From: a virus
Reading direction: 5' to 3' (one strand)
Virus record (IMG/VR): IMGVR_UViG_3300020452_000401
Coordinates: 1 to 22,261 of that record
DNA length: 22,261 bases
The translations under genes and the position numbers were made by a program. Shown here piece by piece: positions 286-461 of this stretch. A model generated the notes under the pieces. It worked only from the letters and a program-made list of their open reading frames with translations. It did not search any database and had not been told where the DNA came from. Every line of letters begins with the position of its first letter. Within the stretch, counting starts at the first letter, position 1.

Positions 286-341
286 GTCCGTTCATCCCTT
301 TGGGACGCATGACATGAGGTGACAGGGAACGGGGTCCCTCA
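286..341 (+). promoter_or_regulatory. Candidate glutamine-II (downstream-peptide) riboswitch
   Basis: Seen directly: a perfect 6-bp outer helix P1 (CCGTTC 288-293 with GAACGG 327-332), an inner hairpin (TCCC 295-298, loop TTT, GGGA 302-305), the unpaired GCATGACA segment at 307-314, and a possible pseudoknot between TGAGG (315-319) and CCTCA (337-341). The order and the words CGTTCATCC, GGACGCATGACA and CAGGGAACGG match my memory of the downstream-peptide RNA, known as a glutamine-II riboswitch in marine Synechococcus, Prochlorococcus and their phages. As in that class, it is followed by a very short ORF. CCTC (337-340) can alternatively pair with GAGG (352-355) of the ribosome binding site, so ligand-stabilised pseudoknot formation would free translation. 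The ON-switch direction is inference. Confidence 0.75.
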
Positions 342-348
342 GTTCTCT

Positions 349-355
349 AAGGAGG
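349..355 (+). promoter_or_regulatory. Strong Shine-Dalgarno AAGGAGG for the 33-aa ORF
   Basis: AAGGAGG ends 4 nt before the ATG at 360. It is one of very few strong ribosome binding sites in the window; most genes here start by coupling to the previous stop. Its GAGG can pair with CCTC at 337-340, which also belongs to the predicted riboswitch pseudoknot, so the site looks like the output of the riboswitch. Confidence 0.7.
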
Positions 356-359
356 ATAT

Positions 360-461
360 ATGCCAAACGTTGAACTTCGTCAGCGTGTGCGTGAGCAAGC
401 CCAAGCTCTTAAAGAGCAGAAGCTTGTCTATCGCGGTGTGGCTTACCTTAAAAGCCGCTAA
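360..461 (+). CDS. 33-aa riboswitch-controlled peptide with YRGVAY motif
   Basis: ATG to TAA gives 33 residues: a charged amphipathic N-terminal helix (residues about 4-21, rich in Arg, Glu and Gln) and a C-terminal KLVYRGVAYLKSR. The L-x-YRG-x-x-Y pattern is the core of DUF4278, a short domain frequent in cyanobacteria and cyanophages; function unknown. It has a strong Shine-Dalgarno and lies just behind a candidate glutamine-II riboswitch, the arrangement that gave 'downstream-peptide' RNAs their name. Its production is therefore probably tied to cellular glutamine. Small basic proteins under glutamine riboswitches in other cyanobacteria inhibit glutamine synthetase (GifB/IF17), but I see no clear sequence match to those. 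The stop codon is part of the hairpin at 457-499. Confidence 0.75.
   Translation: MPNVELRQRVREQAQALKEQKLVYRGVAYLKSR

Follow-up and report, generated by a model that had tools for sequence, protein, structure and literature searches.

The DNA analysed here (the window) is the whole of IMG/VR virus record IMGVR_UViG_3300020452_000401, a viral contig of 22,261 bases that makes up the complete record. It carries a glutamine-II riboswitch of the host type, fixed in the late-gene block of a marine T7-like cyanopodovirus. We consider it probable that the riboswitch exerts glutamine-ON translational control over a small peptide with a YRGxxY motif and that the capsid gene further downstream is a separate matter.

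Setting of the locus

DNA and protein matches lead to T7-like cyanophages, which agrees with the podovirus origin given in the preliminary description. The contig begins within psbA, whose 3'-end (2-67, + strand; FPLDLAAASTTEVALTAPSIG) matches the psbA C terminus of relatives. It is followed by a 70-aa ORF (71-283, +; phrog_961), the aptamer, a 33-aa ORF, the capsid gene and the tail tube gene, with the terminase at the far end. The phrog_961 family also occurs in T4-like cyanophages, and the 71-283 ORF is shared at the DNA level with many of them. Its stop codon lies 5 nt upstream of the first base of the PK helix, and hence ribosomes terminating there may disturb folding of the aptamer. The closest match at the locus is the fosmid phage MedDCM-OCT-S45-C4 (Ashivirus), where psbA, the aptamer, the peptide (97% identical; AP013538) and the capsid gene follow in identical order. 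A tRNA search of the window found none.

The aptamer

In a scan of the whole window, the only Rfam family above threshold was RF01704 (Glutamine-II), which matched positions 286-341 of the + strand with 38.8 bits (E 2.2e-6; gathering cut-off 33 bits) over the full length of the model (positions 1-60). Glutamine-I (RF01739) was rejected, since its score of 15.9 bits stays far below the 35 bits that this family demands. The class first proposed for this element is thus borne out: judged by its sequence, the aptamer is a genuine member of RF01704, a class already known, in an unusual genome.

The helices can be named after the crystal structure of the class (PMC6698751). The PK helix pairs 289-293 with 327-331, the latter within the strand GAACGG (327-332). 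Between its strands lie the P1 hairpin UCCC-UUU-GGGA (295-305) and the ligand-binding strand CGCAUGA (306-312). P2 is formed by 315-323 and GUCCCUCA (334-341). All the helices described earlier (288-293/327-332, the hairpin 295-298/302-305, the junction GCATGACA at 307-314 and TGAGG/CCTCA at 315-319/337-341) are readable, but their names were exchanged: the former P1 is the PK helix, the inner hairpin is P1 and the pseudoknot is P2. P2 was also drawn too short. It comprises 8 bp, with 315-319 and 321-323 paired to 334-341 and U320 bulged, and the duplex has an energy of -9.4 kcal/mol.

In the crystal structure, C1, G2, G18, A37, A38, C39 and G40 contact the ligand or a metal, and the corresponding bases of the window (C289, G290, G307, A328, A329, C330 and G331) are identical. 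Direct reading against the structure shows that the long-range pair C19:G41 is also kept, as C308/G332, and so is the A33:G42 pair, as A324/G333. The partner of G332 should therefore be C308, and not C288 as was assumed before.

Distribution and covariation

A two-gap pattern scan of IMG/VR returned at least 120 loci, these being counts of loci and not of independent lineages. Among the matches listed, T7-like structural genes are found at 109/120 loci and the order scaffold-(psbA)-aptamer-YRG peptide-capsid is fixed. Where the neighbors could be seen, the capsid gene was downstream in 87/87, the scaffold gene upstream in 63/63 and psbA upstream in 68/68 of these matches.

Scoring of 23 named cyanopodoviruses by the covariance model avoids the bias of the pattern scan. 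Sixteen exceeded the RF01704 cut-off: P-SSP7, P-SSP2, P-SSP10, P-GSP1, 9515-10a, NATL1A-7, NATL2A-133, S-RIP1, S-RIP2, S-TIP37, S-TIP28, SS120-1, S-CBP1, S-CBP4 and two fosmid phages. By the same model, no aptamer was found in Syn5, P60, S-CBP2, S-CBP42 and S-B28, and S-SBP1 and S-CBP3 scored under the cut-off. The low score of S-SBP1 is explained by a gene, gp32, that occupies its P1 loop; in S-CBP3, a broken copy sits at the corresponding place. Five T4-like cyanophage genomes gave no Glutamine-II match above the cut-off. On the host side, the genus to which Prochlorococcus MIT 9314 belongs was sampled with 41 genomes; all of them have one to six copies, and several copies precede DUF4278 peptides.

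Because the pattern scan fixed parts of the aptamer core, covariation can be judged only outside the pattern, as in the strands of P2. When P2 was tested on 81 distinct sequences, a helix score of at least 7 was reached by 86% of the strands with their own partners and by 7% with swapped partners. Since swapping strands between phages destroys the pairing, the helix is not due to chance. For the single, bulged P2 of the window by itself, shuffling gives no significance, its score being equalled in 256 of 2000 shuffles.

One could regard the phage aptamer as a remnant of a host gene, decayed to the point of having lost its function. The window scores 38.8 bits where the best host copies reach 67-70, and the broken copy of S-CBP3 lies at the same place. 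However, the contact bases are intact in the window and the changes across phages are compensatory; in SS120-1, for example, the PK helix has U-A in place of a C-G pair. We consider decay very unlikely, and favor a working sensor.

In the sea, clade B of the T7-like cyanophages far outnumbers clade A (PMC9381782). Most clade-B genomes, P-SSP7 included, have the glutamine sensor, conserved and always in one position.

The YRG peptide

The 33-aa ORF (MPNVELRQRVREQAQALKEQKLVYRGVAYLKSR; 360-461, +) starts 18 nt past the aptamer and ends in LVYRGVAYLKSR. The short downstream peptide ORF of the preliminary description, its ATG at 360-362 and its Shine-Dalgarno sequence (SD; GGAGG, 351-355, +) were all correctly placed. 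The product matches phrog_5049 and is DUF4278-like, its score of 17.5 bits falling below the Pfam cut-off for DUF4278 (PF14105, 25.3 bits). A phage relative (from locus L132) scores 29.9 bits and the host peptides behind Glutamine-II 33-43 bits. P-SSP7 and P-SSP2 have a 17-aa ORF, MKVTFVYRGVAYTRVIG, after the aptamer in unannotated sequence. With sensor and peptide both present in this model phage, P-SSP7, the question of whether phages read the nitrogen status of their host becomes directly testable in culture.

Does the product matter, or only the act of its translation? In many phages the ORF encodes no more than 13-20 aa, as might be expected of a leader peptide or uORF. The protein sequence argues otherwise. 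The Y, R, G and second Y of the YRGxxY motif are invariant in 113 distinct ORFs; YRG served as the filter for finding the ORFs, the second Y did not. The third positions of the R and G codons change silently. Moreover, the two length classes share the same core, and there is homology to host DUF4278 peptides. We find the leader-peptide explanation unlikely and take the peptide itself to be the regulated product.

One study (PMC6316151) places Prochlorococcus DUF4278 peptides of the PMM1846 type under glutamine-II control. It also describes DUF4278 as the N-terminal part of IF17, dispensable for inactivation of glutamine synthetase (GS). A role as GS inhibitor in the manner of the inactivating factors IF7 and IF17, which bind the enzyme directly, therefore does not follow for the phage peptide.

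A few observations concern the neighborhood of the peptide gene. Three Prochlorococcus aptamers with the phage-like CGCAUGA junction (L383, L384, L385) precede a different peptide of 56 aa, which has no YRG and no Pfam match; at its N terminus it is similar to phage peptides of L128 and L129. At five phage loci (L361, L363, L124, L175, L204), a small protein is encoded between the peptide and the capsid gene. It starts like a signal peptide (MKKIALALAASIASTPAMAGPYVN...) and may be located in the outer membrane. Finally, in phage S28-C3 a sub-threshold PhotoRC-I match (L122:3147-3195, - strand; 26.1 bits, cut-off 45) lies opposite the genes, just past the peptide gene.

The switch

Glutamine-II is reported to be an ON switch that binds glutamine at millimolar to sub-millimolar concentrations (PMC6698751, PMC6316151). 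The Kd of the crystallised RNA is 190 uM. The glutamine-ON sign originally assigned to this locus is the likely one by these class reports, PMC6698751 in particular.

The mechanism suggested at first was a simple mutually exclusive switch, in which the 3' strand of the pseudoknot blocks the ribosome site whenever glutamine is absent. CCTC (337-340) is indeed complementary to GAGG (352-355). The CCUC/GAGG pairing is worth -2.6 kcal/mol, whereas a local hairpin, GUUCUC-UAAG-GAGGAU (342-357, +), covers the same SD with -4.6 kcal/mol and, in the model, is still there once P2 has formed, so that the simple exclusion is not supported. This hairpin is a candidate expression platform, and hairpins of its kind also occur in S-RIP2 (-4.8 kcal/mol) and in the closest relatives (L001, L102). 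As a general mechanism, SD sequestration by the 3' P2 strand was rejected, the complementarity being present in only 2 of 102 related leaders.

The fold model gives a weak shift over these leaders: the mean probability that the SD is free goes from 0.20 without P2 to 0.30 with it, rising in 70 of the 102. In the window, the same model keeps the SD paired with or without P2 (probability free, 0.006 to 0.03). In some relatives (L337, L338, L472, L481 and others), sequence just 5' of the aptamer pairs with the peptide's ribosome site (UUCGUACG/UGUACGAA, UAUCUAGUA/UACUAGGUA). This helix overlaps or abuts the first PK bases and is a possible expression platform in that subset. In the window it would have only 4 bp and is taken to be absent.

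We envisage the following course. At high glutamine, the ligand would bind the pseudoknot, as has been shown for the class. The bound RNA would close and so release the ribosome site in front of the YRGxxY ORF, whose small peptide would then be made, if the ON sign of the class applies here. For the window, we take the most likely OFF state to be the SD-covering hairpin at 342-357, which the end of P2 at 341 directly abuts. Pairing of CCUC with GAGG possibly assists the OFF state while P2 is open. The nitrogen metabolism of the infected host is the probable point of action of the peptide, a putative single-repeat relative of the host DUF4278 peptides under the same riboswitch class. This action is the weakest step of the scheme. 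The capsid gene would be governed separately.

The capsid gene

The capsid gene had been considered a possible target of the sensor, with late gene output following host nitrogen status. In principle, coupled translation or an effect on mRNA stability, spanning the 33-aa ORF, could extend the reach of the riboswitch to the output of the capsid and late genes. The aptamer keeps its place before the capsid gene wherever this could be seen among the matches listed, and the two are on the same strand, probably in one transcript. However, the aptamer is 18 nt before the 33-aa ORF, and between the peptide stop and the start of the major capsid gene (619-1734, +; PF21703, E 7.5e-71) there are 157 nt that hold another conserved structure, distinct from the riboswitch (476-560, +). 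In other phages, further ORFs intervene.

The structure at 476-560 is the capsid gene's own leader. A T-arm-like hairpin comes first and is followed by stems with compensatory exchange. Among 34 non-redundant sequences, the fourth pair of stem 1 is UA in 16, AU in 14, GC in 3 and a mismatch in one, and the third pair of stem 2 is GC in 18, AU in 12 and UA in 4. The leader matched no family in Rfam. It is also present in S-B28, a phage without the aptamer. Because the capsid gene has a separate covarying leader that occurs without the aptamer as well, its control by glutamine is unsupported, and we regard such control as improbable. Control of the peptide, with the capsid gene left to its own leader, remains the reading we prefer.

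A gene inside the aptamer

In many relatives, the P1 loop, which in the window is the UUU at 299-301, houses a gene. That the gene is nested within the aptamer is read directly from the sequence. In S-SBP1 (L338:1986-2190) it is gp32, of 54 aa. Phrog_628-like genes of 54-60 aa, in two subfamilies, lie within the P1 hairpin loop at more than 100 loci (L423-L502; L505-L541 and S-SBP1). A protein search for relatives of the inner ORF gave 163 IMG/VR loci, of which the best 80 were inspected. All of these 80 sit with psbA or the capsid gene. The ORF lies between the aptamer halves and ends at the TGA of GCA|TGA in 70 of them, stops one codon later in 8 and is cut by the contig end in 2. Members of the second subfamily (60 aa, about 30% identical) are nested in 37/37 loci, with TGA or TAA after GACGCA.

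The start codon of the inner gene is in or beside the 5' strand of P1 and the stop directly follows the ligand-binding strand. The last codons, GAC GCA, contain that strand, which explains the invariant C-terminal DA. In the 54-aa form, pairwise changes are most frequent at third codon positions (33,883, vs. 13,817 and 8,718 at the other two), which argues that the ORF is a real gene. For the protein, structure prediction gives a hairpin of two helices (pLDDT 86). T4-like phages have distant homologues that can stand free of an aptamer: gp7 of syn9 matches, and syn9 has no Glutamine-II hit. Two loci (L458 and L495) have the aptamer type of the window, with the bulged P2 and the same SD region, and an ORF in the loop. 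By this comparison, the aptamer of the window is the empty-loop form of a lineage whose filled form they represent.

The nesting raises the possibility of a toggle with two outputs. With glutamine bound, the start of the inner gene would be masked and the YRG peptide could be made; ribosomes translating the inner gene would in turn open up the sensor and thereby stop synthesis of the peptide. We hold this idea tentatively, at somewhat less than an even chance. Within the partial coverage of the literature searched, no description of the nesting or of such a toggle was found. If true, the gene-in-aptamer form would be an unusual coupling of two phage proteins to one metabolite, and it merits study of its own.

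Comparison with known systems

Other phages have been reported to carry glutamine riboswitches, namely a marine methylophage and cyanophages of the T4-like group (PMC9964418, PMC9602691, PMC9004378). Where the class is named, these are of the glnA (Glutamine-I) type, unlike the present one. The fixed aptamer-peptide module of T7-like cyanophages is apparently undescribed.

With the Glutamine-II (downstream-peptide, type 2 glutamine) riboswitch RF01704, the element of the window shares the core sequence, the ligand-contact bases, the PK helix, a P2 adjoining the start region and a short ORF downstream. It differs in residing in a phage genome, in the single-nt bulge of P2 and in its place in a podovirus structural gene block rather than ahead of a host nitrogen gene.

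The nearest parallel to the peptide is found in the Prochlorococcus DUF4278 peptides, which have the same YRGxxY repeat and the same glutamine-II class in the 5' leader (PMC6316151). The host proteins examined carry their first repeat at the N terminus and have two or three in all, whereas the phage peptide has a single one, which either terminates a charged segment on its C-terminal side or stands by itself in a peptide of 13-20 aa.
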